A stretch of DNA of 16,252 bases from Nitrososphaerales archaeon TH5896 (GTDB taxonomy: Archaea > Thermoproteota > Nitrososphaeria > Nitrososphaerales > Nitrososphaeraceae), in contig JAATVP010000074.1 in assembly GCA_014523625.1 (NCBI GenBank), positions 1 to 16,252 of the forward strand, written 5' to 3'. The position numbers and the translations under genes are program-made. The notes under the pieces were generated by a model. That model did not search any database and was not told the DNA's origin. It worked only from the letters and a program-made list of their open reading frames with translations. Position 1 is the first letter of the stretch; each line of letters opens with the position of its first letter. Below are positions 1 to 12,823 of this stretch, piece after piece.

Positions 1-6
1 CCATCC

Positions 7-177
7 ATGTACGTAAGTAATTACTCTGCTGTTCTTCTTGAAGAGTATCAATCGTTGAAAGATGATCAAAGGATTATCCTTCGCGATCATCTTGTTGAAG
101 CGGCATTGAATCAGTATCGAGGCAGGCAGATAATGCTCGCTCAACCCGACAAGGTTCGTTCAGCGTTAAGGTTGTGA
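7..177 (+). CDS. Short hypothetical protein, possibly the C-terminal end of a gene cut by the window edge
   Basis: The frame reads 56 residues from an ATG at 7 to TGA at 175-177, and it stays open upstream to the window edge, so it may be the tail of a longer protein. The product is charged and looks helical (LLEEYQSLKDDQRIILRDHL, then VEAALNQYRGRQ) with a basic C-terminus. That would suit the end of a small DNA-binding or antitoxin-like protein, but I do not recognise a family. The amino-acid composition looks coding. Whether 7 is the true start cannot be decided from this window. Confidence 0.4.
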   Translation: MYVSNYSAVLLEEYQSLKDDQRIILRDHLVEAALNQYRGRQIMLAQPDKVRSALRL

Positions 178-401
178 GCCCAAAATTTAGTTCAAAAATG
201 GTTCACATAACAACAGGTGACGGGGTAATGTGTAACGTCCTACGTCGATAGGGGTGAATGCGTTTACAGCACCTCTATTTAGGCCTCCTGACATTCGATC
301 TTTACATTAATCTTTACATTAATTAGGATGCTTGACAGATCAGAACAGAAAGTGAATTTGAAGGTACATATTGTAATGAGTTATCCAAAAGGAACCCCCT
401 C
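178..401. other. Gene-free stretch with a 12-bp tandem duplication
   Basis: No reading frame of useful length is seen on either strand. The one distinct feature is a perfect head-to-tail duplication of the 12-mer tctttacattaa at 299-310 and 311-322. The stretch leads into the degraded dehydrogenase fragment and is probably decayed sequence. Confidence 0.4.
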
Positions 402-553
402 AATAGGTGACCGTCGTGCGGGAAAATGGAGCTGGTGAAAGAAGCTGGAAGCGACGGTATCTTTGTTAAAGCTGACGTCTCAAACGAAGATGATGTCAAG
501 CACTTGTAGAGACAACCGTGAAGGCGTACGAAGTACTCACTAACTCAGGATTC
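402..553 (+). pseudogene. Degraded fragment of a short-chain dehydrogenase/reductase (SDR)
   Basis: From the ATG at 426 the frame reads MELVKEAGSDGIFVKADVSN and continues EDDVKHL to a TAG at 507. This is the classic SDR segment that precedes the 'D-V' cofactor-binding site and the following helix. Shifting one base at 507 restores the expected continuation ETTVKAYE (509-532), followed by a weak match to the region before the NNAG motif. Upstream, the frame encoding GDRRAGK joins only after another one-base shift near the A-run at 423-426. The Rossmann glycine motif and the whole catalytic Tyr-x3-Lys half are absent. It is a short, doubly frameshifted relic without function. Confidence 0.7.
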
Positions 554-626
554 TCAGTTCTCTATAATTTTCATACCACATGAAACGATTTTTATGTAAT
601 TGGTTCTCAATCAAAGAGGAAAATTA

Positions 627-1244
627 GTGACAGCTGTAGATTCAAGGCAATACAAAGAGACAGAACGCCAGAAGTGGGATAGTGTGACTAGTGGCTGGCA
701 GAAGTGGTGGAGGACAATCGAAAGAGGTGCCGGAAAACTTAGTAACCGTTTGATAGAACTTGCAGAGATTAAACCAGGCTCTAGAATTCTAGATATTGCA
801 ACAGGTATAGGAGAACCAGCTATTACAGTTGCAAATCAGATGGGTAAGACTGGCTGCTACATTTTGGCTACAGATATTTCACCTCAAATGTTATCGATAG
901 CAAAACAGAGAGCTATTGCATTAGACCTATCAAATATGATTGAATTTAAAGTGGGAGATACAGAAACAATCGATTTACCAAATTCAACATTTGATGCTGC
1001 ACTATGTAGAGCAGGATTGATGCTTTTTTCAGATCTTAATGCGGGTTTATCAAATATTTATCAGTCATTGATAGAAGGTGGTCATTTTGCAGCCGCCGTT
1101 TGGGGTTTACCAAATAAGGTTCCTTTCATTTCCGTAGTCACGAATACGATAATGAAAGAAACCAACACCCCACCACCTCCACCGGGAACTCCTGGACCAT
1201 TTAGCCTTTCGGATGAAAATAGCCTCAAGAATTCTTTTATCTAA
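627..1244 (+). CDS. C-terminally truncated class I SAM-dependent methyltransferase (UbiE-like)
   Basis: The protein is a Rossmann-fold methyltransferase. Motif I is ILDIATGIGEP, an acidic ribose-binding residue follows in ATDIS, and the post-II/III region reads FDAALCRAGLMLF, then a glycine-rich LIEGGHFAAAVWG segment. Related archaeal enzymes run to about 270-290 residues with a further domain after the PFSLSDENSLKNSFI motif. Here a TAA comes directly after that motif, so about 70-80 C-terminal residues are lost. The GTG at 627 was chosen because agagga (615-620) lies six bases ahead; the frame is open back to a TTG at 600, which is an alternative start. A TATA-like tctataatttt lies near 559-569. 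The substrate is unknown. It is probably a decaying gene, though the catalytic core is complete enough that a short product could be made. Confidence 0.65.
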   Translation: MTAVDSRQYKETERQKWDSVTSGWQKWWRTIERGAGKLSNRLIELAEIKPGSRILDIATGIGEPAITVANQMGKTGCYILATDISPQMLSIAKQRAIALDLSNMIEFKVGDTETIDLPNSTFDAALCRAGLMLFSDLNAGLSNIYQSLIEGGHFAAAVWGLPNKVPFISVVTNTIMKETNTPPPPPGTPGPFSLSDENSLKNSFI

Positions 1245-1399
1245 TCTGACATTCCACTTATATACTGTTATCTGTTTATATCCTTTTTAACTGTCATTAT
1301 TTACCAATAATCACTTCCCCAAATTACCTTTTTAGAACATAGCGCAACAGTTGTGAGTGAAAATCTTAATAGAGATAGTTCTCATTTCTATGAACTGAT

Positions 1400-1720
1400 A
1401 TGACTGGTTACTCTAAGGATCTAATATTCTCCTTATGTCTTGTGTTTTTAGTATCTTGCTTTATGAGTTGGGGTGTTCATATATTTGGAGAACCTATTGT
1501 AAGGATACCTGATTTCAAACTGGAAAAGATTGTCGATGGATTGTCTAGACCCATCGGCATATCCTTTATTGGTCACGATGACTTTCTAGTAATTGAGGAA
1601 GATACCGGAAAGGTCAAACGGGTCATTGATGGACAGGTAACCCAATCTATATTAGATTTAGATGTCTCAACAGATGATTTAAGAAGACTTATAGGCATAT
1701 GGTCGCAACCGAAGAATTAA
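1400..1720 (+). pseudogene. N-terminal remnant of a PQQ-type glucose/sorbosone dehydrogenase
   Basis: The 106-residue frame opens with a hydrophobic export segment (about residues 8-28: LIFSLCLVFLVSCFMSWGV), followed by FKLEKIVDGLSRPIGISFIG and DDFLVIEEDTGKVKRVIDGQ. These match the first blade of soluble aldose-sugar/sorbosone dehydrogenase beta-propellers, where the protein goes on for another 250 or more residues after an 'ERGxLGI' motif. Here that motif appears as LRRLIGI, and the frame then diverges and stops at 1720. Six-bladed propellers cannot fold from one blade, so I read this as a truncated, non-functional gene. No convincing continuation in another frame follows. Confidence 0.6.
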
Positions 1721-1851
1721 AACGGTACATGGGTTGGGGATCTGACAGTGGCATTATACACCTCCAAATTGACAATTATTGCCAGCTTATCACCAGTGAC
1801 TCATTCGTGAAAGAACGTTACCAATACAGCACCATTAATAATAATGACTAG
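1699..1851 (+). CDS. Possible 50-residue hypothetical protein
   Basis: An ATG at 1699 opens a 50-residue frame (beginning MVATEELKRYMGWGSDSG) that overlaps the last 22 bases of the truncated dehydrogenase frame. The composition is plausible for coding sequence, but there is no recognisable domain, no clear ribosome-binding site and no promoter. It may equally be a frameshifted piece of unrelated decayed sequence. Confidence 0.2.
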   Translation: MVATEELKRYMGWGSDSGIIHLQIDNYCQLITSDSFVKERYQYSTINNND

Positions 1852-1881
1852 TATGATAGCAGGAGGAGGATAGGCCTTAGA

Positions 1882-1919
1882 CTCTATAGAGGGTTAGCGC
1901 CTCTAAATACAATAGAGGC
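1882..1919. repeat. Short palindrome and stem-loop
   Basis: A perfect 10-bp palindrome ctctatagag lies at 1882-1891. It is followed by a 6-bp stem (gcctct at 1899-1904, agaggc at 1914-1919) with a nine-base loop. It lies between the end of the plus-strand dehydrogenase remnant and the convergent minus-strand membrane protein, so a termination or decay-scar role is possible. There is no oligo-T run beside it. Confidence 0.3.
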
Positions 1920-1958
1920 AAGTCGCAATAGTGACGACTATGAGATCCATTAATCATG

Positions 1959-2297
1959 TTATTTATTTTTTTGTACAATTGCAAGAAAAAATAATATTAG
2001 AATTGCAAGAGTCATTGAGGATGTTATTATAGACCCATAGCCTGTATCGAGTACTTCAAAGGCTTCTTCTAATGACTCAAATAATAACTGGATTCCAAAG
2101 AGAGCGAATGCTGTAGCTGCGTATATTATCTTCTTGAGGCCAGTTTTCCTATACGCAGAAATTGATAGTGCTAACAATAATAGCGAAAAGATCCCGGTAA
2201 TTGCCATTATCGCAATTTCTATATCCTCAAACATCTCTGCTTGCAAAAACAATCCTGAAAATGTAATCAATACTATTATTGCTGATTCAATTATCAA
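1959..2297 (-). CDS. Small four-helix membrane protein encoded with a winged-helix regulator
   Basis: This 112-residue protein is mostly hydrophobic, with four likely transmembrane segments at about residues 3-20, 27-48, 56-74 and 87-108. Short charged loops include YRKTGLKK between helices 2 and 3 and ESLEEAFEVLD before helix 4. Its ATG lies only two bases after the stop codon of the upstream tandem winged-helix regulator, so the two are almost certainly co-transcribed and probably translationally coupled. In archaea, small four-helix proteins are often paired with such regulators, which suggests a membrane sensor or partner role. That role is inference. No catalytic motif is visible. Confidence 0.75.
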   Translation of the reverse strand: MIIESAIIVLITFSGLFLQAEMFEDIEIAIMAITGIFSLLLLALSISAYRKTGLKKIIYAATAFALFGIQLLFESLEEAFEVLDTGYGSIITSSMTLAILILFFLAIVQKNK

Positions 2298-2299
2298 TG

Positions 2300-2842
2300 C
2301 TATTCAGTACTCCCTCTAGATAACGAAAGAAAAATCTCTGCCAAACGATCACTCCATCTTCCCCAAATGTTTGGATAGTAATTCCGCATTAACATAGTAA
2401 TGTATCTAGATGAGGTTGTTCTATCACGTAATTGATATCTCTTGTATCTCCCATCCTTTATTTCAATAATTAACATGATTTCAATCAAGCGTCTTATGTA
2501 CCAATTAACAGATGCTGATGATATTCCAATTCTATTGGCTATTTCTGTTTGAGTGGGTGCTTGTTCTTCTATGATGAACATAAGTATTTCCCGAGCAGTT
2601 TCTTGCCCTAGAATCTTAAGGATCTCCTTTTCATTTTCCTTGAAAATTCCGGCAGGAAAGTAATGTCTGTACAGACCGTGCCTTGTAGATACTACTCTTG
2701 TGCCTTTCTCTAGTCTCTCTAAATGGTACTGTGCAGTTCCCATTGAAATATCTGTAGCCTCTTTGATTTTACGTAGGTGGCAGCCTGGATTATGTTGAAT
2801 GAATTGTAATATTCTCTCAGCTGTATCTCCAATCCCATCCAC
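2300..2842 (-). CDS. Tandem winged helix-turn-helix transcriptional regulator
   Basis: Two winged-helix units follow one another in 180 residues. The first (about 8-62) contains GCHLRKIKEATDISMGTAQYH, here split as GCHLRKI and MGTAQYHLERLEK, with a wing ending YRHYFP. The second (about 72-150) has the recognition-helix pattern TEIANRIGISSASVNWYIRR and a wing DGRYKRYQL. This arrangement is typical of archaeal one-component regulators of the ArsR/MarR-like group. The start is a GTG at 2842; the frame has no earlier candidate supported by a promoter. A TATA-like ctaataaata on the plus strand (2886-2895) reads as a TATA box for this gene. It is divergent from the secreted-protein gene at 3067, whose promoter carries a paired inverted element, making it a natural candidate to bind there, though that is untested. 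Confidence 0.85.
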   Translation of the reverse strand: MDGIGDTAERILQFIQHNPGCHLRKIKEATDISMGTAQYHLERLEKGTRVVSTRHGLYRHYFPAGIFKENEKEILKILGQETAREILMFIIEEQAPTQTEIANRIGISSASVNWYIRRLIEIMLIIEIKDGRYKRYQLRDRTTSSRYITMLMRNYYPNIWGRWSDRLAEIFLSLSRGSTE

Positions 2843-2885
2843 AACGATCTACCAGTCCGCCTTGGAGCGATAATGATAATAAAAC

Positions 2886-2895
2886 TAATAAATAA
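2886..2895 (-). promoter_or_regulatory. Probable TATA box of the winged-helix/membrane-protein operon
   Basis: On the minus strand the sequence reads tatttattag, an AT-rich TATA-like element about 48 bp ahead of the GTG at 2842. That would place the transcript start near 2865 with a short leader. It is the best match in the intergenic region, apart from a second candidate at 2947-2953. Confidence 0.4.
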
Positions 2896-2946
2896 TACTC
2901 TTCAACTACAATAAAATACAAATTTGAGCCTTTTCGGCATTTTTAG

Positions 2947-3042
2947 TATAAATGTCTTGTGGTACAGGTACCTAACTGATAACCAACCTTCCTTCATGAT
3001 TATATGGATTCATTTAGCTGCTTGTACCAAATATCTTATTTA
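2947..3042 (+). promoter_or_regulatory. Promoter with an inverted pair of 18-bp elements (copy A)
   Basis: The right arm atttagctgcttgtacca (3012-3029) lies five bases ahead of a TATA-like cttatt (3035-3040), 27-32 bp before the ATG at 3067, the spacing expected for a leaderless archaeal transcript. The left arm tggtacaggtacctaact (2960-2977) is its reverse complement at 14 of 18 positions, separated by 34 bp. Outside the left arm, tataaat (2947-2953) would act as a TATA box on the minus strand. The right arm is identical to that of copy B at 3638-3655, with identical spacing to arm, TATA and start codon. It is most likely the binding site for a shared regulator. Confidence 0.7.
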
Positions 3043-3066
3043 GCATTGATACATTAACCAGGTACG

Positions 3067-3387
3067 ATGAACACAAAATCAGTCCTGAGCTTCGGTGTTA
3101 TCATAGCCGTAGCCATGACATCAATGTCTCTGCTTGGTAGTATCATTTCCAATGTAGGGGCACAAGGACAAACAAATGATACAACTCAAATAAAGAATTA
3201 CTTGACTGAGGCCATGCAAGCACTTGACAGCGGCAACAACACTATGGTATTAGAGCAATTAGATTTAGCAGAGGCTGCGATGACAGGAACAGCAGATGAT
3301 GACGAAGGAGAAGTAGAAGAAGGACCAGGAGAAGATGAGGACGAACCAGGAGACGTAGACACTAATGATGAAGAAGATTCGCCCTGA
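3067..3387 (+). CDS. Small secreted acidic protein
   Basis: The 106-residue protein starts with a clear export signal (basic MNTKS, then the hydrophobic run VLSFGVIIAVAMTSMSLLGS, with likely cleavage after NVGA at about residue 32). The mature part has a short helical section with QIKNYLTEAMQALDSGN and VLEQLDLAEAAMTG, then a strongly acidic, low-complexity tail (DDDEGEVEEGPGEDEDEPGD) ending EEDSP. The tail could bind divalent metal ions or reflect a surface-exposed, unstructured region. Related small exported proteins with a helical hairpin are common in ammonia-oxidising archaea, but none has an assigned function that I can name. The gene has its own promoter (copy A of the paired element) and an oligo-T terminator at 3430-3436. 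Confidence 0.8.
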   Translation: MNTKSVLSFGVIIAVAMTSMSLLGSIISNVGAQGQTNDTTQIKNYLTEAMQALDSGNNTMVLEQLDLAEAAMTGTADDDEGEVEEGPGEDEDEPGDVDTNDEEDSP

Positions 3388-3429
3388 TCAGCAGTAATAG
3401 CGGGGAATAAGAATACGACCTAACTCATC

Positions 3430-3436
3430 TTTTTTT
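3430..3436 (+). terminator. Oligo-T terminator after the acidic secreted protein
   Basis: A run of seven T follows 42 bases after the stop codon of the gene ending at 3387, in a T-rich context. Archaeal RNA polymerase commonly terminates at such runs without a hairpin. Confidence 0.5.
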
Positions 3437-3572
3437 GTAAACATCTTAATTATTTTTATAATATCGCCTGTACATCTGTTGCAATCAATGAAATCAACTC
3501 AACATTACGATACTGCGTAGAGAGAATATGTGCTGGCAGCTACGCTATTGCTTATCGAGCAACTGAACGAGC

Positions 3573-3668
3573 TATAAATTGTTTGTGGTACAAGCATCTA
3601 AATAAATCTGATATTTATATCATGATTCCCTAATCTGATTTAGCTGCTTGTACCAGATTACTTATTAG
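3573..3668 (+). promoter_or_regulatory. Promoter with an inverted pair of 18-bp elements (copy B)
   Basis: The right arm atttagctgcttgtacca (3638-3655) is identical to copy A. The left arm tggtacaagcatctaaat (3586-3603) is its reverse complement at 17 of 18 positions. The arms are 34 bp apart, cttatt (3661-3666) begins six positions after the right arm, and 37 bp separate the right arm from the ATG at 3693, every spacing exactly as in copy A. A tataaat (3573-3579) lies six bases outside the left arm, again as in copy A. Apart from a shared tcatgatt in the middle, the spacer sequences differ, which argues for selection on the arms and spacing rather than a recent duplication. Confidence 0.75.
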
Positions 3669-3692
3669 TTGTAGTACTGCATACTTAATACA

Positions 3693-4424
3693 ATGAAACC
3701 GATCGGATCTAATGTAATCTACATGGTAGCAGCTGCGGTAGCATTAGCAGCTATACCGCTCGTTTCCTCGACAATGGCCAATGCGCAAAACCAATCATGG
3801 ACTAGCACATTTAACTTGGAGCTTTGCAATTTCTCCACTACAGGTACTAACCCATATTTTATTCTACAGCCTGGTTATCAGCTTGTGTTTGCTGGTATAG
3901 AAGATGGCGAACCACTCAATGTAACTGTCACAGTAAGCAATAAGACAAAAGTTGTCGGAGATGGGATAATCACTAGATTAGTAGAAGAAAGGGTAGTTAA
4001 CAGCGAAACCGGCGACTTAAAGGAACTCACCAAAGATTACTTTGCCATATGCGATAAGACAGACAGTGTGTTTTACTTTGGCGAAGATGTTAATAACTAC
4101 GAGAATGGAGTATTAGTTGATCACGAAGGTTCGTGGTTGCATGGTTCAGATAACGCAAGAGCTGGTTTAATAATGCCTGGAACTCCTCTACTTGGCTCAA
4201 GATATTATCAGGAAATAGCTCCAGAGATTGCATTGGATAAGGCAGAGATAGTAAGTATGAATCAAACAGTGAATGTTCCTGCAGGCAGCTTTAGTGAAGT
4301 AATAGAGATGAGAGAAACAAATGATCTCGAACCAGGTATAGAGGAGGATAATCTACATGCTCCTGGAATCGGACAGGTAATAGATCATGAATTAGAACTG
4401 GTCAGCTATGGTTATCTTAAATAA
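3693..4424 (+). CDS. Secreted conserved protein of unknown function
   Basis: The 243-residue protein has an export signal (MKPIGSNVIYMVAAAVALAA, likely cleaved after STMANA at about residue 31). The mature part is rich in predicted beta-strand. Recognisable segments are NPYFILQPGYQLVFAG near the N-terminus, TRLVEERVV, DKTDSVFYFGEDVNNYENG, then EGSWLHG, LIMPGTPLLGSRYYQE, and a C-terminal VPAGSFSEVIEMRET followed by HAPGIGQV. This pattern is shared by a widespread exported family in bacteria and archaea whose role I cannot state. Several N-x-S/T sites suit a glycosylated surface protein. It has its own promoter (copy B), of the same design as that of the acidic secreted protein, so the two are probably regulated together. 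A run of six T at 4450-4455 is a possible terminator. Confidence 0.8.
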   Translation: MKPIGSNVIYMVAAAVALAAIPLVSSTMANAQNQSWTSTFNLELCNFSTTGTNPYFILQPGYQLVFAGIEDGEPLNVTVTVSNKTKVVGDGIITRLVEERVVNSETGDLKELTKDYFAICDKTDSVFYFGEDVNNYENGVLVDHEGSWLHGSDNARAGLIMPGTPLLGSRYYQEIAPEIALDKAEIVSMNQTVNVPAGSFSEVIEMRETNDLEPGIEEDNLHAPGIGQVIDHELELVSYGYLK

Positions 4425-4449
4425 GTGCATGACTTAAGCCCGTTTTCAA

Positions 4450-4455
4450 TTTTTT
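4450..4455 (+). terminator. Possible oligo-T terminator after the secreted protein
   Basis: Six T residues in a T-rich context lie 25 bases after the stop codon of the gene ending at 4424. The signal is weak, but it is placed as expected for an archaeal terminator. Confidence 0.35.
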
Positions 4456-4505
4456 GCCGCAATGGTAGCTACTCAAGAGAGAAAACCAAAATTACGATTC
4501 ATGTA

Positions 4506-4628
4506 TCACCCCTTCACTAATCCATGGTAAACATCGCTGTCTTTGATAATTCTAGAGATCAGTTTGGAGTAGGTTTCGCCAAAGGTTCCTTTACTCCTTA
4601 ATTTCTGAAACGTTCTGTCGTCTGACAT
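4506..4628 (-). CDS. Small ribbon-helix-helix-like protein (antitoxin type)
   Basis: A 40-residue frame reads MSDDRTFQKLRSKGTFGETY and then SKLISRIIKDSDVYHGLVKG. The pattern (D-x-T-[FW]-x-K-L, then G-T-F-G-E-T-Y-x-x-L-I-x-R-[IL]-[IL]-K) matches the small archaeal DNA-binding or antitoxin proteins in which a strand, a helix and an 'ETF/ETY...LI' helix form a ribbon-helix-helix-like fold. Homologues usually carry a few more residues before the VSD, so this copy is either N-terminally shortened or starts at the in-frame ATG at 4634. Both candidate starts lie inside an 18-bp perfect palindrome. No toxin gene is seen beside it. It is too short for most gene finders. Confidence 0.5.
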   Translation of the reverse strand: MSDDRTFQKLRSKGTFGETYSKLISRIIKDSDVYHGLVKG

Positions 4629-4660
4629 GTACATGTCAGTTCTAGCACATAGAACTGGCA
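4622..4660 (-). promoter_or_regulatory. Perfect 18-bp palindrome overlapping a stem-loop at the start of the small RHH-like gene
   Basis: The sequence ctgacatgtacatgtcag (4622-4639) is a perfect palindrome containing both possible start codons of the 40-residue gene. Overlapping it, tgtcagttct (4634-4643) pairs with agaactggca (4651-4660) around a seven-base loop with one G-U type mismatch. It could be an autoregulatory operator for the RHH-like product, or an RNA structure hiding the start. Confidence 0.4.
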
Positions 4661-4794
4661 GCTAAAAGGAAGTAAACCACTGCCAAAGTAGATGCTTCCA
4701 TTTGACTAATACTACTGGATTACCGTGATGCTCTTATTCCTTTAAAATACATGAAGAACGACTCCCAATTACACTACTTTCAGATTAACACAAT

Positions 4795-5130
4795 TCAACT
4801 ATGTTCTGATTCATCTAACTTCGATCTAATAAAATTGTGAAACTTTTCTATCTCATCTTTGAATATTACTCTATCAAAAGCCTGCTGGTTTACTTGCTGT
4901 ACGCCGTTAGACACGATTTCTTCTATGTCTTTCCGCATACTAATGCGATTCCATCGAGCTATCTTTGATAATATTGGTTCATCAAAATACTTGAATACCA
5001 TTTCAGCTTTTTTCTCTTTAAATTTAGCATTCTCTTCTCTATTTCTAAAAACTGAATAAAGGTCAGATTTTGATATGCTTACCTTACCTTCTAGCGCTAT
5101 TATGTGAGCTATCTCATGACCCGGGGTCAT
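4795..5130 (-). CDS. Hypothetical protein overlapping the end of the patatin gene
   Basis: This 111-residue frame starts at an ATG 17 bases inside the 3' end of the patatin frame and is read one frame away. It is helical and charged, with an HEIAH motif at residues 5-9 that fits the HExxH zinc-protease pattern, but no glycine turn or third ligand is obvious and the motif sits at the extreme N-terminus. Patatins of the large archaeal type normally continue past this point, so it could be the frameshifted tail of the patatin or of some other gene joined here. I do not recognise a family. The coding-like composition and a stop two codons upstream of the ATG are what can be seen. Confidence 0.45.
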   Translation of the reverse strand: MTPGHEIAHIIALEGKVSISKSDLYSVFRNREENAKFKEKKAEMVFKYFDEPILSKIARWNRISMRKDIEEIVSNGVQQVNQQAFDRVIFKDEIEKFHNFIRSKLDESEHS

Positions 5131-6181
5131 CTTTTAATTTAGCTGGCCATACGTCTGTGATATACACATCTAGCGCAGGAATCTTAACCTTTTTTCCTCC
5201 GTCTTCTTCCTTTGTGCCATCCCACAATCTATCCTCTTGAATTTCATTTTTCCAGTAATCCTTATGTTTGTCTATCAGTTCTCGCAGAGGCGTATTGCTC
5301 AAGACACCACCATCCCAAAAAGGCCGCCTTTTTCCAGATTGTTTATCTACTAGGGCGACATGTCTGTAAAGATCAGGCATTGAGAAAGTGGTACTTAGCT
5401 GATCCCATCCTATGCCATCGGAGTATTCAAAAATATGATGGTATTCTTCTTTTGGCTTGTTGTTATAATCATTCCATTCGTCATAGTCATTGTATTCTGT
5501 CTTAGTATTATAGCTATCAAACGATACTGTATTACCAGATTGCACATCTACGCTGACCAATAAAAAGCGAGGTTCACTTCTCTTTTCGCTATATTCCGTT
5601 CTGATTGGAAACTTAATATAATTTCGGCAGCTCTCCTTCAAAGAGAAAGTCGGAAAGGTCATCCAGGACGGCAATCGTTTCTGTTCGCCACGCAATCTAA
5701 AGCCATATGAAATATCGCCATATTTAAGATCCCAACGAGGGATTGCTGCAGCAACATTCGGTGCTCCAAGAGTCCTAGTAGTCCAGTATCTTCTGGCTGA
5801 TTCTGCGGATGCGGGAATGTCCCACGCTTCTTTGGCAAAATGCAATAAGTCAAACCATTCCTTAACTAAGGGATTATATTGAATATTAGGTACTGAGCCC
5901 TCTGTTGTTTCTAATATCCTATCCCAGCCTTGTTTCATGGTCTTGATTGAATTGTGAAATAGATCCCATGGCCAGAAATTCAAATCGACCCAATCAGTAA
6001 AGAAATATTTAGTTTGTACTTCTCGCCAGAATTTTTCTAATATATCTGCTGAACCCTTCCAATATTCTGATGCAGGGAAGGAATTACTGACATCCGCCTC
6101 TTTCTTATTCAGAAAATGACTCACAATAATAGCGCCGTTAATTGCACCTATTGAGGTACCGGCAATAACATCAATTGCTTG
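5114..6181 (-). pseudogene. Patatin-like phospholipase, N-terminally broken
   Basis: Reading back from the first usable start (GTG at 6124), the frame stays open to a TAG at 6182-6184 and encodes AIDVIAGTSIGAINGAII, the nucleophile elbow GTSIG of patatins. No ATG, GTG or TTG lies ahead of it in frame, so a protein started at 6124 (336 residues) would lack the catalytic serine. The glycine-rich oxyanion-hole segment that should precede it is also missing. The catalytic Asp is present in FWDGGVLSNTPL (about residue 271 from the GTG), as are family segments SAESARRYWTTR and APNVAAAIPRWD. The C-terminal third of the family is absent or replaced by the overlapping frame at 4795-5130. The gene acted on lipids when intact and is now most likely inactive. 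Confidence 0.7.
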
Positions 6182-6242
6182 CTAGAGTATGATACCAGTC
6201 CACCTCCTGGACATCTCGCCTGAGTTCGTTAACCTTTAGCAC
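6171..6242 (-). pseudogene. Possible fragment of a methyltransferase N-terminus fused to the broken patatin
   Basis: Starting at a GTG (6242), a 23-residue frame reads VLKVNELRRDVQEVDWYHTL and ends ASN before TGA. The pattern ELRRxVQ...WYHT resembles the N-terminal 'WYHTI' segment of some class I methyltransferases. It runs into the patatin sequence, one frame away, so the two pieces look joined by a deletion. The match is short and uncertain. Confidence 0.25.
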
Positions 6243-6367
6243 TGCATAAAACAACTGGATTGTCAATTAGGTTTATGCATAGTTATTACTGCAATTGCAG
6301 CTGCTAATGCTGTTGCTAATACTAGTGATGATCAGTATGCAAAAGAAAGTCTATAAAGTATTACATA

Positions 6368-6598
6368 TTATTGATCAGCAAAGTTACTTCCATACACAGC
6401 GTTGAATTTTTTGAACATTAATGCACAGCTTTCATTATCAAAAGTATATTGTGATCCATCAATTTGTTCTACTACCACTGTTGGCAATGCGGAAGTATTT
6501 TCTAGCTGCCGATCTCCTTCGTTTTCCCTGTCAACACCATCGCTAACAAAAACGTATTTCCCACACATTGCACATTCGTATTCATGTGCCGATATCAT
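6368..6598 (-). CDS. Small CxxC zinc-finger protein (TRASH-like)
   Basis: The 76-residue protein opens with YECAMCGKYVF (Cys 9 and Cys 12), then a variable charged region, then VVVEQIDGSQYTFDNESCAL with Cys 58 and MFKKFNAVYG. The spacing and the 'YxFDxxxCxxMFKKF' ending match the TRASH-like metal-binding module seen in archaeal metal-response proteins and at the front of some sensor proteins. It may act as a free-standing metal-binding or regulatory protein, possibly binding zinc or copper. The start is an ATG at 6598. A 9-bp inverted repeat around a TATA-like stretch lies just upstream (6643-6670), so the gene is probably regulated there. Confidence 0.7.
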   Translation of the reverse strand: MISAHEYECAMCGKYVFVSDGVDRENEGDRQLENTSALPTVVVEQIDGSQYTFDNESCALMFKKFNAVYGSNFADQ

Positions 6599-6642
6599 AT
6601 GATAGTAGTCACTTTGCCTCTTTTTTGCTTAGCGATATAATT

Positions 6643-6670
6643 GCAACTAAATTTAAAAAGGTTTAGTTGC
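6643..6670 (-). promoter_or_regulatory. Inverted repeat spanning the promoter of the zinc-finger gene
   Basis: Two perfect 9-bp arms, gcaactaaa (6643-6651) and tttagttgc (6662-6670), flank a ten-base AT-rich spacer, tttaaaaagg. On the minus strand this spacer reads as a TATA element about 50-60 bp before the ATG at 6598. A dimeric repressor binding both arms would cover the TATA box. The spacer could also serve transcription to the right. Confidence 0.5.
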
Positions 6671-6853
6671 TATAGATGCTATTTTCTTATAAAATGACCG
6701 ATTTGATTAAGATTCTTGTCAATGCTGGTATATGATTCTATAAATTGTTACATATCACACACCCTGGGGCGACTGATACAATATTTCTAATCGATTATGA
6801 TAGAATTTAGATCCCTTTCTCCTGCAAATACGTGTATCTGATTTAACTCGGCT

Positions 6854-7015
6854 ATGGTTTTCGTTGCGGCCGCACTAATAGGCATAACACTAATTTGTAA
6901 GAAATTTTATCAATGTATTCAATACAAAGTCATTCACTACAGCAAAATACCGTCCGAAGATCACAACGATATTCTTATTTTAATGAGTCTGACAATTCCC
7001 TTAGGAATATCATGA
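6854..7015 (+). CDS. Possible small membrane protein or gene remnant
   Basis: The 53-residue frame begins MVFVAAALIGITLICKKF, a plausible transmembrane helix followed by positive charge, then a polar stretch (YSKIPSEDHND) and a second hydrophobic segment ILILMSLTIPLGIS that ends abruptly. It could be a two-helix protein or the edge of a lost membrane protein. No ribosome-binding site is seen. Confidence 0.25.
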   Translation: MVFVAAALIGITLICKKFYQCIQYKVIHYSKIPSEDHNDILILMSLTIPLGIS

Positions 7016-7262
7016 TGTGTAGTCATTGCAGATTCTAGTGTAAACTAGGTACATGATCATTGTGATTCTGACTTCCCATATAAACGTCTTACAAAAGCAA
7101 AGATGAACTTTATATCACAGAAAATATCTTCTTAAGACAACTAATTATTGGCAAAGAAACTAATGCTTCAGGTGAACTGATTAGTCATCTTTATTTCTTG
7201 CCATGCTATAATTCCAGCGTGGACTCCTGTAGTTGACGTCATTACCATCCTCTAAAAGGAAT

Positions 7263-8242
7263 ATGCGTCTTGGAAATGAGGAAAAAGAGGAGGAGGAGAA
7301 AATGGAATTATTAAACAGTCCTGAAGATGTGATAAAGCTCGTACTTAGATTGAGTCCAAAGGTAAAAAATAGTCTTGATGGATGTTTTGACTACACCGGG
7401 CCTTCAATTCAAGTCGAAACGAAAGCATCAATATTGCTGCTCATGAGCTGCGCAATCCTATTCAGCCTATACTAGGTTTATCTGATGTTCTTCTGCGTTC
7501 GGATGCTTTTTTTGATAAAAGCAAATTAAATGAGATTAAACAGAAAGAGATAGTTGAGATAATTGCTAGAAATGCAAGAAGACTTCAACAGCTCACTGAA
7601 GACATACTTGATGTAACCAAAATTGATAGCAAGACTTTGAAGCTAAATAAACTAAGTTTTGATCTTGCAGTAACGATAAGAGAGATGGTACAAGATTATT
7701 CTGCTGAAATAAGGAATCATGATAAGAGAATTGTTATTTCCTTTTCTTGTCCAAATGACTTGGAATCTAGCTTTATAGTCGCAGATGAGAATAGAATCAG
7801 GCAGGTATTGTGTAACTTGATAGATAATGCAATAAAATTCACTAAGGAAGGTGCCATAACTATTTCAACTGAGATCGACAATAAACACAATCAAATAATT
7901 GTCAAAGTTAAGGATACCGGTACAGGAATCGATTCTGATATAATCCCGAACCTATTCAAGAAATTCGTAACAAAGTCTGACAGTGGTACTGGACTTGGCT
8001 TGTATATATGTAAGGGAATAATTGAAGCGCATAACGGCAGAATATCGGCTGAGAATAATTCTGAACAGGATCATAATGCAGAAGTTAAATTTGGTGAAAG
8101 CAGAATGAAAAATGGAGCTACATTCAGTTTTAATCTGCCACTATACTATTCTTCAGCTAGCTTTAATTTGCCTCAGTTCTTTCTATTGCTAATGGTTGGG
8201 ATAGAAACTATTCATTTGGTTCCGTTAATCTGGCTGAATTAA
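7263..8242 (+). pseudogene. Sensor histidine kinase with a large internal deletion and frameshift
   Basis: Two frames belong to one gene. The first (7263 to about 7425; longest start TTG 7233) gives MELLNSPEDVIKLVLRLSPK and LDGCFDYTGPSIQVETKAS, the start of an archaeal sensor region. The second frame then opens as ESINIAAHELRNPIQPILGL, with the phospho-accepting His at codon 7442-7444, and continues through the N box (NLIDNAIKF), G1 (VKDTGTGID) and G2 (SGTGLGLYI) of the ATPase domain to 8242. In intact relatives several hundred residues separate these parts; here they join at about 7418-7435 in different frames. ATG 7263 follows aaaagga, and ATG 7302 follows a strong gaggaggag. The C-terminal tail may also be shifted, since another frame stays open to 8265. 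A truncated kinase core from ATG 7637 would lack the His. Confidence 0.75.
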
Positions 8243-8413
8243 TGCTAAAAGACGAAAGTGAATAGATTAGAAATAGGAGATGTATGTATATTTTTCGACT
8301 AGCTGAAGCAAACCCTATGAAGTAATATAACATCCATCATATACTCTTTTGATAGTCTTATTGATCACACCTAATAATATCTTGTTTTTCAAAGATTTGT
8401 AGAATCAGTACAA

Positions 8414-8620
8414 ATGACTAGCAATAAAGATTGTAACTGTAGTCAGCGTATGAATAGTTCAAAGCCCGTAGAGTATTTTAAGATAAATGGATCTAGAATT
8501 GAATTACGATGTGGTAATTGCAACGGGCTTGTGAATTGGTGGGTAGAACATCCTCGAACGCGAAACATTGTACCGATTAAGCGACGATGGTCTAAAGAAG
8601 AGCGTGAATCTATGCGCTAG
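8414..8620 (+). CDS. Small protein with paired cysteine motifs
   Basis: The 68-residue protein carries CNC (Cys 7 and Cys 9) and CGNC (Cys 33 and Cys 36), enough for one zinc ribbon, in RIELRCGNCNGLVNWWVEHP. The C-terminus is basic (IKRRWSKEERESMR). Such proteins usually bind nucleic acid or a protein partner, but I cannot name a family. The start ATG at 8414 has no obvious Shine-Dalgarno site, which suits a leaderless transcript. It is a stand-alone gene, followed 30 bp later by a hairpin. Confidence 0.6.
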   Translation: MTSNKDCNCSQRMNSSKPVEYFKINGSRIELRCGNCNGLVNWWVEHPRTRNIVPIKRRWSKEERESMR

Positions 8621-8649
8621 CCCTTCTGAAGCGAACTAATTATCAAAAA

Positions 8650-8669
8650 TTTTCTTATTATTAAGAAAA
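8650..8669 (+). terminator. AT-rich hairpin after the small cysteine protein
   Basis: An 8-bp perfect stem (ttttctta and taagaaaa) with a four-base loop lies 30 bp past the stop codon at 8620. The T-rich left arm itself may provide the termination signal. Confidence 0.4.
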
Positions 8670-8910
8670 ATAGATTTCAAAATCGGGGGAACATCCAATT
8701 TGCTTAATGTGGGCAACCAATACTGGCATAACCAGTATCAGAATTTAGCTCAGGTTAGCTCAAAGTAACTTTTGCCACTTTTTAGTTGACAGGATTCTAG
8801 CCAGTTGTAATTTTTGCGATGCTACTCATAATTCAGCATTTGGCAAATCGTACCATAATCAGACATATCTGGTTCTAGTGATCGCTTATGACTTATTGCA
8901 ATCATACTTA
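8670..8910. other. Gene-free stretch
   Basis: No convincing reading frame or repeat is seen here. The last 30 bases contain acttatt (8891-8897), a likely TATA element for the small membrane-protein gene at 8911. Confidence 0.35.
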
Positions 8911-9021
8911 ATGAGGTTTTATACGATGGTCCAAGATAATAATAACATGGGGAAAGCATTTGGTGTACTATGTGCGTTGTTTGCAATTGGAATCGCTATA
9001 GCTTTGATCATCGACAGTTAG
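8911..9021 (+). CDS. Small single-pass membrane protein
   Basis: This 36-residue frame reads MRFYTMVQDNNNMGKAFG followed by a clean transmembrane helix (VLCALFAIGIAIALIID) and a stop. A second in-frame ATG at 8926 would give 31 residues. A TATA-like element lies 14-20 bp ahead of the first ATG and about 30 bp ahead of the second, which favours ATG 8926 for a leaderless message. Its function is unknown; similar tiny membrane proteins are common in these archaea but seldom annotated. Confidence 0.5.
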   Translation: MRFYTMVQDNNNMGKAFGVLCALFAIGIAIALIIDS

Positions 9022-9100
9022 CAGTCTGTATGATCCAAACTATCCTATCTCAGAATATCTCATGATAACTCATGATGATTGTTATTTAACTTAAACCGTA

Positions 9101-10075
9101 TCAGGAATCTACATTAGGTTCTCTTTTTTTGGCCCGGATTAACACATAATCTAACATTCCGTTCAGGGATAGATCTTTCATCTTTAATGCTGATCTGTAC
9201 ACCGCATATTCAACAAACTCAAAGTAGAGTCTCTGCTTGTACGAGGCAAATGATTGTATTAGCCTATGTCTGATATTCCCTCTATTTCGTACATAATACT
9301 CTGCCAAGGGTTCATATACTTGATGTCCAATTTGTTGAAATTCTTCTATCTGATATCCATGGTCTGCAATAGATCTTGATATTGTATCTATGTCATAATG
9401 TTGTGAAGCCCAACTAAAGTACAGAATTCCAAGTTTTTTCATTAGCTTCAATCTTTTTACGATGCCAATCTTCTGATTCTCCCCTTTTACTAATGGTTTT
9501 AAATCTACAACTGGAATTGCAAGTGCAATCAATCCACCAGGTTTTAAAATTGATTTAGATACTTCAAGAAAATTGGCTATGCTTTGGAAATGTTGTGCTG
9601 ATTCAAATGCCACGATCATGTCAAGCTTATCTTTTCCAAATGGCAGCTTGGTTGAGCTGGCATTGATCAAAGATATGCGATCAAAAGAAGCTGGAGAGGA
9701 ATTGGGAGTAGAAAAAATTACCATTTTCCTGGCTGTACTCAACTCCATGTAATTGATATCAACACACAAAATTCTTAGATGAGGATACTCTGATCTCCAT
9801 TGAACGGCAGGAGCTGAGAATCCACTTCCAACATCGGCAATCAATTCAACAGTTTCGAATTTTGCGAATTTGCCAAATATCGCACTGAGTTCATGTTGTG
9901 CATTTACGGCATCATCGCTATTGTTAATCCAATAACCAAAGTTGAGCATATAATCATTAGAATCATTCACAGCTGTCCGAACATAAGGAGTCAAAGAGTT
10001 GTACAGCTTGATGATGTCTCTTTCAGTTTGTTTAAAGATCCACAAATTCAATTTCACTGAATAGAAAATCGTCAA
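9101..10075 (-). CDS. SAM-dependent methyltransferase (type 11, small-molecule type)
   Basis: The 324-residue protein has the methyltransferase motif I LIADVGSGFSAPA (about residues 79-90), an acidic ribose-binding residue in CVDIN (Asp 106), and post-motif segments LPFGKDKLDMIVAFESAQHF and LKPGGLIALAIP. The N-terminal DYMLNFGYW resembles the sterol/tocopherol/erythromycin-type O- or C-methyltransferases. The C-terminal 140 residues (HYDIDTISRSIADHGYQIEE, then GHQVYEPLAEYYVRNRGNI) would form the acceptor-binding cap. The target is unknown; a lipid or quinone is possible. The start is a TTG at 10075; a GTG at 10057 is an alternative and no ATG exists before the fold. It is divergent from the esterase gene and has a TATA element and an inverted repeat just upstream. 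Confidence 0.85.
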   Translation of the reverse strand: MTIFYSVKLNLWIFKQTERDIIKLYNSLTPYVRTAVNDSNDYMLNFGYWINNSDDAVNAQHELSAIFGKFAKFETVELIADVGSGFSAPAVQWRSEYPHLRILCVDINYMELSTARKMVIFSTPNSSPASFDRISLINASSTKLPFGKDKLDMIVAFESAQHFQSIANFLEVSKSILKPGGLIALAIPVVDLKPLVKGENQKIGIVKRLKLMKKLGILYFSWASQHYDIDTISRSIADHGYQIEEFQQIGHQVYEPLAEYYVRNRGNIRHRLIQSFASYKQRLYFEFVEYAVYRSALKMKDLSLNGMLDYVLIRAKKREPNVDS

Positions 10076-10090
10076 ATAGCAGGCTCATAG

Positions 10091-10132
10091 TTACAGATAG
10101 TGATTTCTGTAATTGCACTCTCATATATATTG
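10091..10132 (-). promoter_or_regulatory. Promoter and likely operator of the methyltransferase gene
   Basis: On the minus strand a TATA element (10124-10132, atatatatg) is followed by an inverted repeat with 7-bp arms, ttacaga (10091-10097) and tctgtaa (10106-10112), spaced by eight bases. The repeat covers the expected transcript start about 25 bp downstream of the TATA box, a position typical of repressor sites. Confidence 0.5.
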
Positions 10133-10272
10133 TCTCTCATCTAGATGATCCGTGCAGATAAAGGTAGAAAATCGATGTCGTGGGATATTATACTGGAGAT
10201 TAGCCAAATATACAAGGAATAGTAGAATACTAATAACCTACAAATTCAATGTTATTTTAATTGGCTAGATTG

Positions 10273-11271
10273 ATGAACAGAGCAAAAGGGAGGATAATTA
10301 TGCATCGCTATACAAGCAAGGTACTAAAATCTAATCCATTAAAAGATCCCTATGTAAGAGACGTCTTGGTATATCTGCCTTCTGATTATACGCAAAGTAA
10401 TTCTAAAGGCTATATTGCCGCATTTGGTCTTGTAGGATTTGGTGGCCAGGGGAAGATGTTATTAAATGCTGATCCATTTGCAGAAAACATAGAACAAAGA
10501 ATGAATCGCCTGATCTCAGAAAGAAAGTGTGGGCCAATGATTTTGGTTTTGCTGGATTGTTTTACAAGATTTGGAGGGAATCAGTATATCAATTCTTCGG
10601 CAACAGGTAATTATGAAGACTATATTATAGATGAGATTGTCCCATTTATAGACAAAAACTACAACACTTCTGCTCATGCTATATGGGGAAAGTCGTCAGG
10701 AGGTTATGGTTCCATCGTTTTGGGTGTGCGACATCCTGATATATTTCAAGGAGTCGTGGATCACTCAGGGGATGCAGGTTTTGAATATTGTTATCCTCCA
10801 GATTTTCCTAAGGCTCTTGATGCATTTAGGGAATCGGGAGGCCCTAAGAAGTGGCTAAATAAATTCTGGAAGAAACCCAATCGTCATCAGAAAAATGATG
10901 CCCAGCCTTTGAGTACTTTTGGAATGGCGGCACATTATTCACCAAATCCTAAATCAAAAGAAATGGGCGTGGATTTACCCTTCGATCTCCATACTGGCGA
11001 GACGTTACCAGAGGTGTGGAACCGATGGCTTGCCTGGGATCCAGTTAGGATGGTAGAAAAATATCGCGAGAATTTGAAAAGGCTTAAACTTATTTTTATT
11101 GATTGTGGCACAAGAGATGAATTCAATGTTCATTGGGGTGCTAGAATGCTTCACTCAAAACTTCTAAGGATGAACATTAAGCATTATTATGAAGAATTTG
11201 ATGATGGTCATATGAATATAAGCTACAGATATGATGTATCTCTACCAAAGATCTACTCAGCATTGTCATAG
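10273..11271 (+). CDS. Esterase-D-type alpha/beta hydrolase
   Basis: The protein belongs to the putative-esterase (esterase D / S-formylglutathione hydrolase-like) group. Counting from the longest start (TTG 10261), the nucleophile elbow is IWGKSSGGYGS with Ser 145, the acid is probably Asp 286 in DCGTRDEFN, and the base is His 317 in DDGHMNIS. The N-terminal strand GRIIMHRYTSKVLKSNPLKD and DVLVYLPSDY are family features, and GLVGFGGQGK provides the oxyanion-hole loop. No signal peptide is visible, so it probably acts in the cytoplasm on small esters or thioesters. I prefer the ATG at 10273 because it keeps the GRII strand; ATG 10300, with ggagg ahead, is also possible. It is divergent from the methyltransferase across about 185 bp, which suggests a shared context but not necessarily a shared pathway. 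Confidence 0.85.
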   Translation: MNRAKGRIIMHRYTSKVLKSNPLKDPYVRDVLVYLPSDYTQSNSKGYIAAFGLVGFGGQGKMLLNADPFAENIEQRMNRLISERKCGPMILVLLDCFTRFGGNQYINSSATGNYEDYIIDEIVPFIDKNYNTSAHAIWGKSSGGYGSIVLGVRHPDIFQGVVDHSGDAGFEYCYPPDFPKALDAFRESGGPKKWLNKFWKKPNRHQKNDAQPLSTFGMAAHYSPNPKSKEMGVDLPFDLHTGETLPEVWNRWLAWDPVRMVEKYRENLKRLKLIFIDCGTRDEFNVHWGARMLHSKLLRMNIKHYYEEFDDGHMNISYRYDVSLPKIYSALS

Positions 11272-11509
11272 GATTTTAATAATAAGTAATGAGATTTAAA
11301 AAATTAAAAAAGCCGATTACATAAATCCAAAGAATTATCTGAGGGTTTGGGTGATCCAACTACGTTAGACTAAAAATGAATTCTGGAGTATTTGTAGACC
11401 TGAAAACTAAAAGAAATTAAAGGATATATTACATTATACCATGATATTGTTGTCGCTACTCTTTGTAATATGGGGATGCGTACCGGAGCTTACTAAAGAC
11501 TGTATTGAC

Positions 11510-11791
11510 ATGACTAACACCTCAAGTACCTACTTGAGCATAATCATAGGAGCTGGTATCGGTGTAGCCATAAGTTGGTGGGTTTACGACAGACAGAAAA
11601 AGACTTCGGTCCAACAAGATAATATTCTCCAACGCGTACGCGATTTAGAACAAAAGAATATGCAAGTTTTGACGAAATTGGAAAGCTTTGCAGAGAGTCA
11701 TGACGAATTATTAAACAGATTAATTCTATTAGATGAGAATATCCTCGAATTAGATAAAAAGATTCAGTCGCTATTAGAAAATAATAACTGA
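11510..11791 (+). CDS. Single-pass membrane protein with a coiled coil
   Basis: From the ATG at 11510 the 93-residue protein has a short polar head (MTNTSST), one transmembrane helix (YLSIIIGAGIGVAISWWV), a positive stop (YDRQKK) and a long heptad-patterned helix (ILQRVRDLEQKNMQVLTKLE through LDENILELDKKIQSLLENN). The topology fits a membrane-anchored coiled-coil adaptor, with no enzyme motif. The frame is open to an ATG at 11441, which would add a second hydrophobic stretch. However, the TATA-like gatatatta (11423-11431) predicts a transcript start near 11452, after that ATG, so I chose 11510. Confidence 0.6.
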   Translation: MTNTSSTYLSIIIGAGIGVAISWWVYDRQKKTSVQQDNILQRVRDLEQKNMQVLTKLESFAESHDELLNRLILLDENILELDKKIQSLLENNN

Positions 11792-11845
11792 TTAATCGTT
11801 AGTTGAGATCTTTTTTGATTGCATTACAACAAGAGGAAGATAGGA

Positions 11846-11950
11846 ATGGAAGGAGCAGAAACGCCCAGAATTTTTTATCCATCCAACAATAATACTTATG
11901 TCGCAAGTACTCTTACAGGAGCCGATGGTCTAGTATCTGTGATACATTAG
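11846..11950 (+). CDS. Possible 34-residue hypothetical protein or remnant
   Basis: An ATG at 11846, preceded by gaggaagatagga, opens a frame beginning MEGAETPRIFYPSNNNTY and ending at TAG 11948. The ribosome-binding match is good, but the product has no recognisable domain and may be a gene fragment. The rest of the stretch to 12117 shows no gene; its T-rich end (12082-12090) may help stop transcription from the left. Confidence 0.25.
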   Translation: MEGAETPRIFYPSNNNTYVASTLTGADGLVSVIH

Positions 11951-12117
11951 TCTTTTACTAGGCTCCCAATTGGAGATTACAAATTCGAACGATATACAAC
12001 TGTTCTTTAATTTAGTACAAATCAATATTGAGCATTTCATAAATTTTCTCTTATACTATTTCTTGTAGTTGGTCATTGTTTCTTGTTTTTCCCAAACATC
12101 ATATATCTCAACTAACT

Positions 12118-12741
12118 TTAAATCACTATTGTTCGAAAAGTCAAGTTTATTCTTGCTTGAGTGATCTTATTAGACTTAGGTAAGCTATGCAACCAATTCG
12201 ATTGTGTGGCATCTCTCATAACAAGTAAACTGCCATGTTCAAGTACAAGCGACAATATTTGTTTAGTTTGTTTATGCTTGAATGAAAACTTTCGTTCTGC
12301 TCCAAAGCTTAGTGATGCAATAGGAGTATTCTTCCCTATTGATTTTTCATCATCACTATGCCATCCTAAACCTTCATTTCCATCATGATATAAGTTTAGC
12401 AAACAAGAATTGAAGCATGCTCCTGAAACTTGTTCAACTAAACGCTTAAGCTCTACAAGTTCTATAGTCCAAATTAATGCCTTCCTTGTTGAATTTGAAT
12501 AAGTATACAAGTAATCAGAGTCACCATACCATGCTACCTTTCTTTTTGTAATGATATGTTTACCAAGAATATTGACTTCATCGTTTTTCCATAGAATATT
12601 TTTCAATAATAAATCAAAATATCTATTTGCCTCTGTGTACGGCATAATTATCCCATAATAATATGCTGTTCCATCTTTGTACAGAAGGTTGTATGTTTCG
12701 TCCGCATTAAGCGCATCTAATTTTCGATTCATTATAATCAT
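12118..12741 (-). CDS. alkB: AlkB-family 2-oxoglutarate/Fe(II) dioxygenase (alkylated nucleic-acid demethylase)
   Basis: The 207-residue protein shows the AlkB core. It has NLYHDGNEGLGWHSDDE with iron ligands His 128 and Asp 130, the SLSFGAERKFSFKH strand pair, the distal ligand His 185 in WLHSLPKS, and the C-terminal RINLTFR (Arg 197 and Arg 203) that holds 2-oxoglutarate and the substrate base. Its length fits the ALKBH2/AlkB class that removes 1-methyladenine and 3-methylcytosine by oxidation, releasing formaldehyde. The start is the ATG at 12741 (a second ATG at 12732 is possible). It lies 250 bp downstream of the Oxygenase-NA and alkyltransferase operon in the same orientation, with an oligo-T stop between, so it probably has its own promoter within one damage-response group. 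Confidence 0.9.
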   Translation of the reverse strand: MIIMNRKLDALNADETYNLLYKDGTAYYYGIIMPYTEANRYFDLLLKNILWKNDEVNILGKHIITKRKVAWYGDSDYLYTYSNSTRKALIWTIELVELKRLVEQVSGACFNSCLLNLYHDGNEGLGWHSDDEKSIGKNTPIASLSFGAERKFSFKHKQTKQILSLVLEHGSLLVMRDATQSNWLHSLPKSNKITQARINLTFRTIVI

Positions 12742-12806: not shown

Positions 12807-12823
12807 GAATGTACATATTTTCT

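Follow-up and report, generated by a model that had tools for sequence, protein, structure and literature searches.

Introduction

The described systems closest to the one reported here are the EarA regulator of Methanococcus maripaludis, the Lrp-family regulator Ptr2 of Methanocaldococcus jannaschii and the ara-box of Sulfolobus. According to the excerpts consulted of PMC5512572, archaeal activators typically bind upstream of the BRE, where they help to recruit TBP or TFB. EarA binds immediately upstream of the BRE and TATA box of the fla promoter, with four 6-bp sites at that one promoter, and its target is a surface system, the archaellum; Ptr2 likewise has multiple sites upstream of the BRE and recruits TBP directly at sub-optimal TATA boxes; and the ara-box is a consensus box lying directly ahead of BRE/TATA, whose description in these excerpts does not include an inverted arrangement with a second TATA box (PMC5512572). 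The HVO_0163-type regulators (PF24266, PF13412) share their domain architecture with the candidate regulator of this study, whose model contains two winged-helix-turn-helix (wHTH) units followed by C-terminal helices. A binding site of such a regulator for comparison was not found in the parts of the literature covered, where the mention of HVO_0163 comes from an acetylome study.

The locus analyzed here lies in a stretch of 16,252 nucleotides from Nitrososphaerales archaeon TH5896 (contig JAATVP010000074.1, positions 1 to 16,252), hereafter the window, which is contig C7 of a 2.74-Mb assembly of 277 contigs. Its sites also stand directly upstream of TATA-like boxes. Unlike at the EarA promoter, they form bipartite inverted half-sites that are phase-locked six turns apart and have a TATA-like box on each side, and unlike Ptr2, the candidate factor is a tandem winged-helix protein (HTH_HVO_0163_N plus HTH_24); spacing and bidirectionality differ as well. 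What would be new relative to the known upstream-regulated archaeal promoters is the placing of phase-locked inverted bipartite sites between back-to-back TATA boxes. Among the literature matches listed, as judged by titles and the starts of abstracts and with subscription journals mostly outside, there is no description of this paired site or its regulon, and the matches listed for ammonia-oxidising soil archaea (again titles and abstract starts) include no defined transcription-factor regulon. These archaea are abundant, and the locus offers a testable regulon for them, consisting of a site with a rule for its spacing, a candidate factor carrying a candidate specificity residue, and a short list of probably secreted targets. 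It also offers a simple system for asking how one archaeal factor handles two divergent TBP/TFB complexes.

A paired element with fixed geometry in the window

The features of the locus are as follows.

1959..2297, - strand: MP, a 112-aa hydrophobic, probable membrane protein that adjoins WH
2300..2842, - strand: WH, a 180-aa tandem winged-helix regulator and the proposed cognate factor; its GTG start lies 117 nt from the left arm of pair 1
2947..2953, - strand: regulator-side TATA box of pair 1 (ATTTATA on this strand), 6 nt outside the left arm
2960..2977, - strand: regulator-side half-site of pair 1, AGTTAGGTACCTGTACCA
3012..3029, + strand: target-side half-site of pair 1, ATTTAGCTGCTTGTACCA
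3036..3043, + strand: TATA-like box TTATTTAG, 6 nt past the arm, its centre about 27 nt before the ATG
3067..3387, + strand: S1, a 106-aa, probably secreted protein with a hydrophobic N-terminus and an acidic C-terminus; ATG 37 nt from the arm
3573..3579, - strand: TATA box of pair 2 (ATTTATA on this strand), on the side that faces no recognised gene
3586..3603, - strand: outer half-site of pair 2, ATTTAGATGCTTGTACCA
3638..3655, + strand: target-side half-site of pair 2, ATTTAGCTGCTTGTACCA
3662..3669, + strand: TATA-like box TTATTAGT, 6 nt past the arm of pair 2
3693..4424, + strand: S2, a 243-aa, beta-rich, probably secreted protein whose N-terminus is hydrophobic; its ATG lies 37 nt beyond the arm

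An earlier note on this DNA had described an identical 18-mer ahead of two genes for secreted proteins, each copy with an inverted partner at the same distance, and its measurements are reproduced here. The + strand copies of ATTTAGCTGCTTGTACCA at 3012-3029 and 3638-3655 have reverse-complement partners at 2960-2977 (14 of 18 positions) and 3586-3603 (17 of 18). In both pairs the arms are separated by 34 nt, the right arm ends 37 nt before the ATG (3067 and 3693), and TTATT begins 6 nt past the right arm, while the intervening sequence is mostly different (41% spacer identity between pairs 1 and 2 against 89% in the arms). Beyond what had been noted, TATAAAT stands 6 nt outside both left arms (2947-2953 and 3573-3579), and the layout in the window reads TATA-arm-34-arm-TATA. 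At up to three mismatches the window contains three matches to the 18-mer, where 0.01 are expected.

Copies in the genome and distribution across genomes

A scan of the whole assembly for the 18-mer at up to three mismatches returned eight matches against one for the reversed control. The genome contains four pairs, all with the 34-nt gap (two on C7, one each on C161 and C248). Seven of the eight matches belong to these pairs, whose eighth arm (2960-2977) has four mismatches; the remaining match, on C98, is a stray inside a long open reading frame. All four copies lie upstream of genes and have a TATA-like box outside both half-sites. The C248 pair precedes a 248-aa paralogue of the 243-aa S2, again with 37 nt to the ATG, and the C161 pair has another winged-helix gene (81% identical) on one side and, on the other, a further small acidic protein whose N-terminus is hydrophobic. 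Arm identity among the four pairs is 75-89%, and interior identity is 35-59% in five of the six comparisons and 82% for the W2/C248 paralogues.

Single half-sites were considered as a wider regulon and rejected, as the genome holds 67 matches at up to one mismatch against 68 for the reversed control. With single half-sites at background level, the pair is the specific object. Exact half-site matches number ten, seven of them within pairs. One of the strays falls in a frame that we take, from its sequence, to resemble a sensor kinase. The other two are in a duplicated stretch close to what is presumably response-regulator-like sequence (L230, G000:C122:2000-5000, about 1275-1510); there, about 50 nt containing the TTAGCTTATTGTATCA half-site are present in two copies, 181 bp apart.

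We then turned to the 70 genomes of the family. A 70-bp pair pattern built solely from the four pairs of this genome matched, at up to three mismatches, 45 places in 24 of the 70, against two places for the reversed pattern; the same site is thus found before several genes and is conserved across the family above the control, as is characteristic of a regulon. When the gap was left free between 23 and 53 (TACA-n5-CTAA / TTAG-n5-TGTA), 36 places were found in 25 of the 70 genomes, with two genomes for the reversed control. Their core gaps were 38 (20 places), 37 (5), 39 (3) and 49 (4), with 28, 29, 33 and 41 once each, so that 28 of the 36 fall at 37-39 and four more lie about one turn longer. 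The paired element is real, conserved and specific.

All four places with gap 49 belong to genus g6 (L046, L047 and L049 at 1501-1575, and G025:C213:444-518) and are not independent, since three of them are orthologues with near-identical spacers. Next to the gap-49 copy of L171, the following rightward ORF is secreted-looking and, as we read its sequence, presumably polysaccharide-deacetylase-like.

In 67 chosen genomes of f2, the order's largest other family, which we take to be Nitrosopumilaceae, the strict free-gap pattern is at background level, with one genome against five control genomes. Of 43 genomes chosen from beyond the home family, 11 encode WH relatives (E ≤1e-20). A wider scan of 400 genomes at up to two mismatches gave matches in 22 of the 62 home-family genomes it included and in 25 from elsewhere, with one control genome. 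In 22 of these 25 the match is a single near-identical stretch that recurs in genus g20 and, judging from its sequence, appears to be coding; the other three (G206, G260 and G321) are weak gap-38 variants adjoining WH relatives. Together with gap-48 candidates before three f2 paralogues, whose scores of 8.6-11.1 are within chance reach, these variants are suggestive, and only that, of the element outside the home family. Three f2 loci (L181, L182 and L183) carry weaker gap-38 pairs with one TGTACCA end and one TGTTCCT/TGTCTCT end, located just downstream, not upstream, of a WH-MP operon.

Half-site anatomy and helical phasing

To describe the element, pairs were scored with a position weight matrix (PWM) in the window and in 80 stretches chosen for a WH relative (the stronger part of the list, mostly above about 35% identity) or for a strict or free-gap pair. 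Requiring a PWM sum over 27, more than 4 for each arm and a gap of 36-40 left 62 pairs after deduplication. Seven of the 36 free-gap places lie outside the 80 stretches (G004:C382, G021:C36, G022:C120, two in G025 and two in G047). As the PWM was trained on gap-38 pairs, many of them beside WH, the counts of WH adjacency and by identity class given below are partly circular with regard to spacing; the strict and free-gap genome counts are independent of it.

The half-site is bipartite, TTAG-n5-TGTAYCA, with an inner box (CTAA/TTAG) and an outer box (TGGTACA/TGTAYCA), and the consensus of 48 distinct gap-38 pairs is CAnTTAGnYAYTTGTAYCA followed by a TATA-like stretch. The two sides differ at one variable position, which is always C in the regulator-side consensus (CAnTTAGnTacTTGTACCA-cAAannaTTana, 26 rows) and 66% T in the target-side consensus (cAtTTAGntncTTGTAtCA-aATTtCTTATTAat, 32 rows). 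The arms contain on average 1.45 and 1.28 bits per position and the interior of 37 oriented pairs 0.35, with one well conserved C near the dyad.

By counting, the two box centres of a half-site are 10.5 bp apart, or one turn; the inner boxes of a pair are separated by 42 bp (4.00 turns at 10.5 bp per turn) and the outer boxes by 63 bp (6.00 turns), and gaps of 48/49 add about one helical turn. Since these distances are whole turns, all boxes would face one side of B-form DNA. Outside the arms, AT content peaks at +7 to +13 (124 flanks of the 62 pairs), and the TATA-like box outside both half-sites is also seen in the averaged flanks, some single orphan sides lacking a clear one. The element therefore has the placement of archaeal activator sites, at a fixed distance immediately upstream of BRE/TATA (6 nt from arm to TATA in the window), and with a TATA-like box usually about 6 nt outside each arm, it reads as a putative bidirectional promoter module.

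Target genes and start-codon geometry

S2 has 1751 homologues at E ≤0.001 and no Pfam match at E ≤0.1. Its sequence matched no solved structure, and the fold comparison gave weak YmcC-like/beta-barrel matches only (TM 0.35, best E 9.2e-5), from which no function was drawn.

Among the 124 sides of the 62 pairs, 40 face an ORF with a hydrophobic N-terminus, as defined by a simple hydrophobicity window applied, in place of a signal-peptide predictor, to first-ATG ORFs of at least 70 aa starting 20-160 nt away. The start lies 31-46 nt from the arm in 35 of the 40 and 35-38 nt in 27; three genes with an earlier in-frame ATG (L111, L116 and L160) fall outside 31-46 for that reason. Expressed per pair, 35 of 62 have such an ORF at 31-46 nt and 27 have none by this test. 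With the TATA centre near +10, the ATG follows about 27 nt further on. In archaeal promoters the TATA box has its centre 26/27 bp ahead of the transcription start site (PMC5512572, in the part consulted). Because the two distances agree, the target genes look leaderless, and leaderless transcripts fit the geometry.

By neighbour, 11 of the 62 pairs lie between WH and S1/S2, 15 beside WH only, 21 beside S1/S2 only and 15 have neither at the positions tested, and in all 11 pairs having both, WH and S1/S2 are on opposite sides. Some pairs without S1/S2 face other hydrophobic-N-terminus ORFs (L120, L160, L163 and L170). On 22 orphan sides picked by hand, the far-side TATA is mostly kept, with exceptions such as L107, L159 and L167. 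Seven copies of the S1 element (genera g5 and g11) remain similar for about 40 nt beyond the orphan arm and then diverge, which hints that the second promoter is real even though no recognised gene follows it; the orphan side of S1 elements could possibly give rise to an unannotated transcript. In these copies the orphan side reads TGTACCA-TAAATGTTTTATA plus about 28 similar bases (L099 1731, L101 1800, L103 5001, L104 4998, L149 1422, L157 2552 and L158 2343).

The candidate winged-helix regulator and its association with the sites

The earlier note had proposed the nearby winged-helix protein as a candidate factor, which is supported by its adjacency to the element and by the way its clade and the sites go together. 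WH exceeds the Pfam gathering thresholds of both HTH_HVO_0163_N (58.9 against 31 bits) and HTH_24 (61.4 against 21.9 bits). Its predicted structure consists of two wHTH units and two C-terminal helices (best mean pLDDT 84.4; range over five models, 54.3 to 84.4). Three solved structures matched the sequence, over a single domain only, and the structural matches of the model, likewise single-domain, include the ArsR-type CzrA, SmtB and CadC, several of them titled repressors. Among named records, close relatives are encoded in one Nitrososphaerales, three Nitrososphaera and one Nitrosocosmicus assembly, and from these and the label of one homologue we take the home family to be Nitrososphaeraceae. 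Many genomes have several WH-like paralogues, and relatives of MP are found beside WH in most of the loci examined.

In 19 of 23 WH-facing pairs, the WH start lies 97-147 nt from the arm (59, 59, 32 and 248 nt in the others), which means that WH mostly has a leader. We examined 60 rows with at least 340 nt upstream of WH, some of them near-identical orthologues, for a pair of gap 36-40 scoring above 10.0 (the maximum over 1200 shuffles was 9.3). Such a pair was found in 8 of 8 rows at 65% identity to WH or more, 16 of 21 at 55-65%, 5 of 13 at 50-55%, 2 of 9 at 40-50% and 1 of 9 below 40%, that is, in 24 of 29 at 55% or more against 8 of 31 below.

Box sequence also varies with the regulator. 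Of 38 rows with a TGTACCA-like heptamer 36-180 nt before WH, five with TAC-type and 21 with TTAG-type inner boxes entered the residue comparison; the regulator-side box was located by its own search, as the nominal best pair was misplaced in some rows. Residue 110, which comes second in the recognition helix predicted for HTH2, is R in all five TAC-type regulators and A (14) or P (7) in all 21 TTAG-type regulators above 50% identity. Besides 110, column 11 is the only one at which all five share a residue that is absent from the 21. This covariation suggests recognition of the inner box by HTH2, in which case the largely conserved outer box would fall to HTH1 (SMGTxQYHL-like), although the TAC rows are compatible with one origin and may count as one event; a sister pair of rows has CTG. 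In genome G069 WH genes of both the TTAG and the TAC type are present, and each has sites of the matching type next to it (L093 and L106), although one S2 element in that genome (L166) mixes the two types.

Counting a genome as having WH when its best E is ≤1e-50, 19 of the 70 family genomes have both WH and the pair, five the pair only, 14 WH only and 32 neither (Fisher p = 1.3e-4, kinship ignored). The five pair-bearing genomes without a close intact WH are G009, G012, G027, G062 and G067, of which G012, G062 and G067 are drafts. In G027 (one contig; L148, 2552-3054), WH is split into two pieces in different frames next to an intact paired element. G009, a complete one-contig genome, has kept the S1 element and has no WH relative beyond a weak partial match (E = 3e-6 with the profile, 1.9e-11 with a single-sequence query); at L157 (G009:C1:195900-201000) the pair at 2552-2621 has its geometry intact and no tandem-wHTH orthologue. 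Either another factor acts in G009 or the regulator was recently lost. Of the 14 genomes with a close WH and no strict pair, seven belong to genus g10, some with TAC/CTG-type boxes, and G008, G010, G059 and G063 have pairs with a gap of 37 or 39.

Models for the action of the element

In our judgement WH is probably a regulator that acts on the paired half-sites and governs an autoregulated local regulon, whichever the sign of its effect. The earlier note had postulated a specific dimeric or looped regulator of at least two exported proteins, and the comparative data (the 45 places in 24 of 70 genomes and the preferred distance) support it, binding by WH and its dimer or loop being what we infer. 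Each 70-bp element would be a symmetric, bidirectional regulated promoter, with one WH per half-site, its HTH2 contacting the inner box and its HTH1 probably the outer one. The two copies would then associate with each other, the DNA of the 34-nt spacer between them being bent or looped. As a TATA-like box usually lies 6 nt outside each arm, the half-site binder would sit next to the TFB/TBP position, and the paired WH could recruit or stabilise TFB/TBP there. On one side this would produce leaderless mRNAs of secreted proteins and on the other the leadered WH-MP operon, hence autoregulation.

The same sites would also serve if WH were a repressor. Bound beside or between the two TATA boxes, it would block TFB or RNA polymerase in both directions until a signal, possibly relayed by the membrane partner MP, releases it. 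This reading overlaps with the preceding one, and we regard it as rather less likely than not. Autoregulation with a divergent arrangement is common among repressors, and the single-domain matches of the WH model to CzrA, SmtB and CadC agree with it. However, the sites end 6 nt before TATA, which they leave uncovered along with the start, and the target-side boxes (TTATTAA) look by eye weaker than the regulator-side TTTATA. Archaeal activators, moreover, typically bind upstream of the BRE (PMC5512572, excerpts). Because the sites end where such activators act, activation with autoregulation is favoured, if only mildly, over repression. It is rather unlikely that another factor, a wHTH paralogue or an alternative TFB/TBP, occupies the half-sites and that WH is merely another target. 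The element without a close WH in the complete genome G009 and the several WH-like paralogues of many genomes would fit such a factor, but both the presence of the element and its box sequence follow the WH clade, and the pair keeps its 97-147 nt to the first listed WH start in 19 of 23 WH-facing pairs.

The two remaining explanations concern the origin of the similarity. The earlier note had offered, as an alternative, a 70-bp element with terminal inverted repeats, that is, a mobile MITE-like element that landed in promoters. Inverted termini and several copies per genome are as expected for one, but near-identical copies at unrelated places were not what we found: interiors are only 35-59% alike in five of the six comparisons within the genome, the four copies there are each upstream of a gene, TATA boxes flank the arms, the ATG distance is a preferred one, and the pair is kept in the promoters of related genes across genera. 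We consider this origin highly improbable. A chance similarity through recent duplication of a promoter between tandem genes, to which the direct register of pairs 1 and 2, 626 bp apart, might point, is just as hard to credit, given that searches with S1 and with S2 did not recover the respective other gene in the window (E ≤1e-3), that the spacers are 41% identical against 89% for the arms, and that the element is conserved in other genera.

Returning to WH as the regulator of the paired sites, a more detailed version can be put forward tentatively, and we hold it to be less probable than not. The element would represent a class of promoter architecture new to archaea, a double-headed, face-locked operator. 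Two tandem-wHTH proteins, six turns apart (about seven turns in a further genus), would bridge the DNA or bend it and would serve two back-to-back TBP/TFB complexes. One complex would feed the regulator's own operon and the other the leaderless secreted-protein genes, while orphan copies, retaining their second TATA box, would make an unrecognised transcript.

Other features of the window

Two further regions of the window drew our attention. The ORF at 5114-6124 is patatin-like (Pfam E 0.0035, below the curated cut-off) and overlaps an ORF in another frame at 4795-5130; 4795-6124 may represent a single gene interrupted by a frame change or an assembly error. At 7233-8242 there are two short consecutive ORFs that look like a fragmented sensor kinase, the second containing a stretch, GTGLGLYICKGI, that we take to be histidine-kinase ATPase-like.
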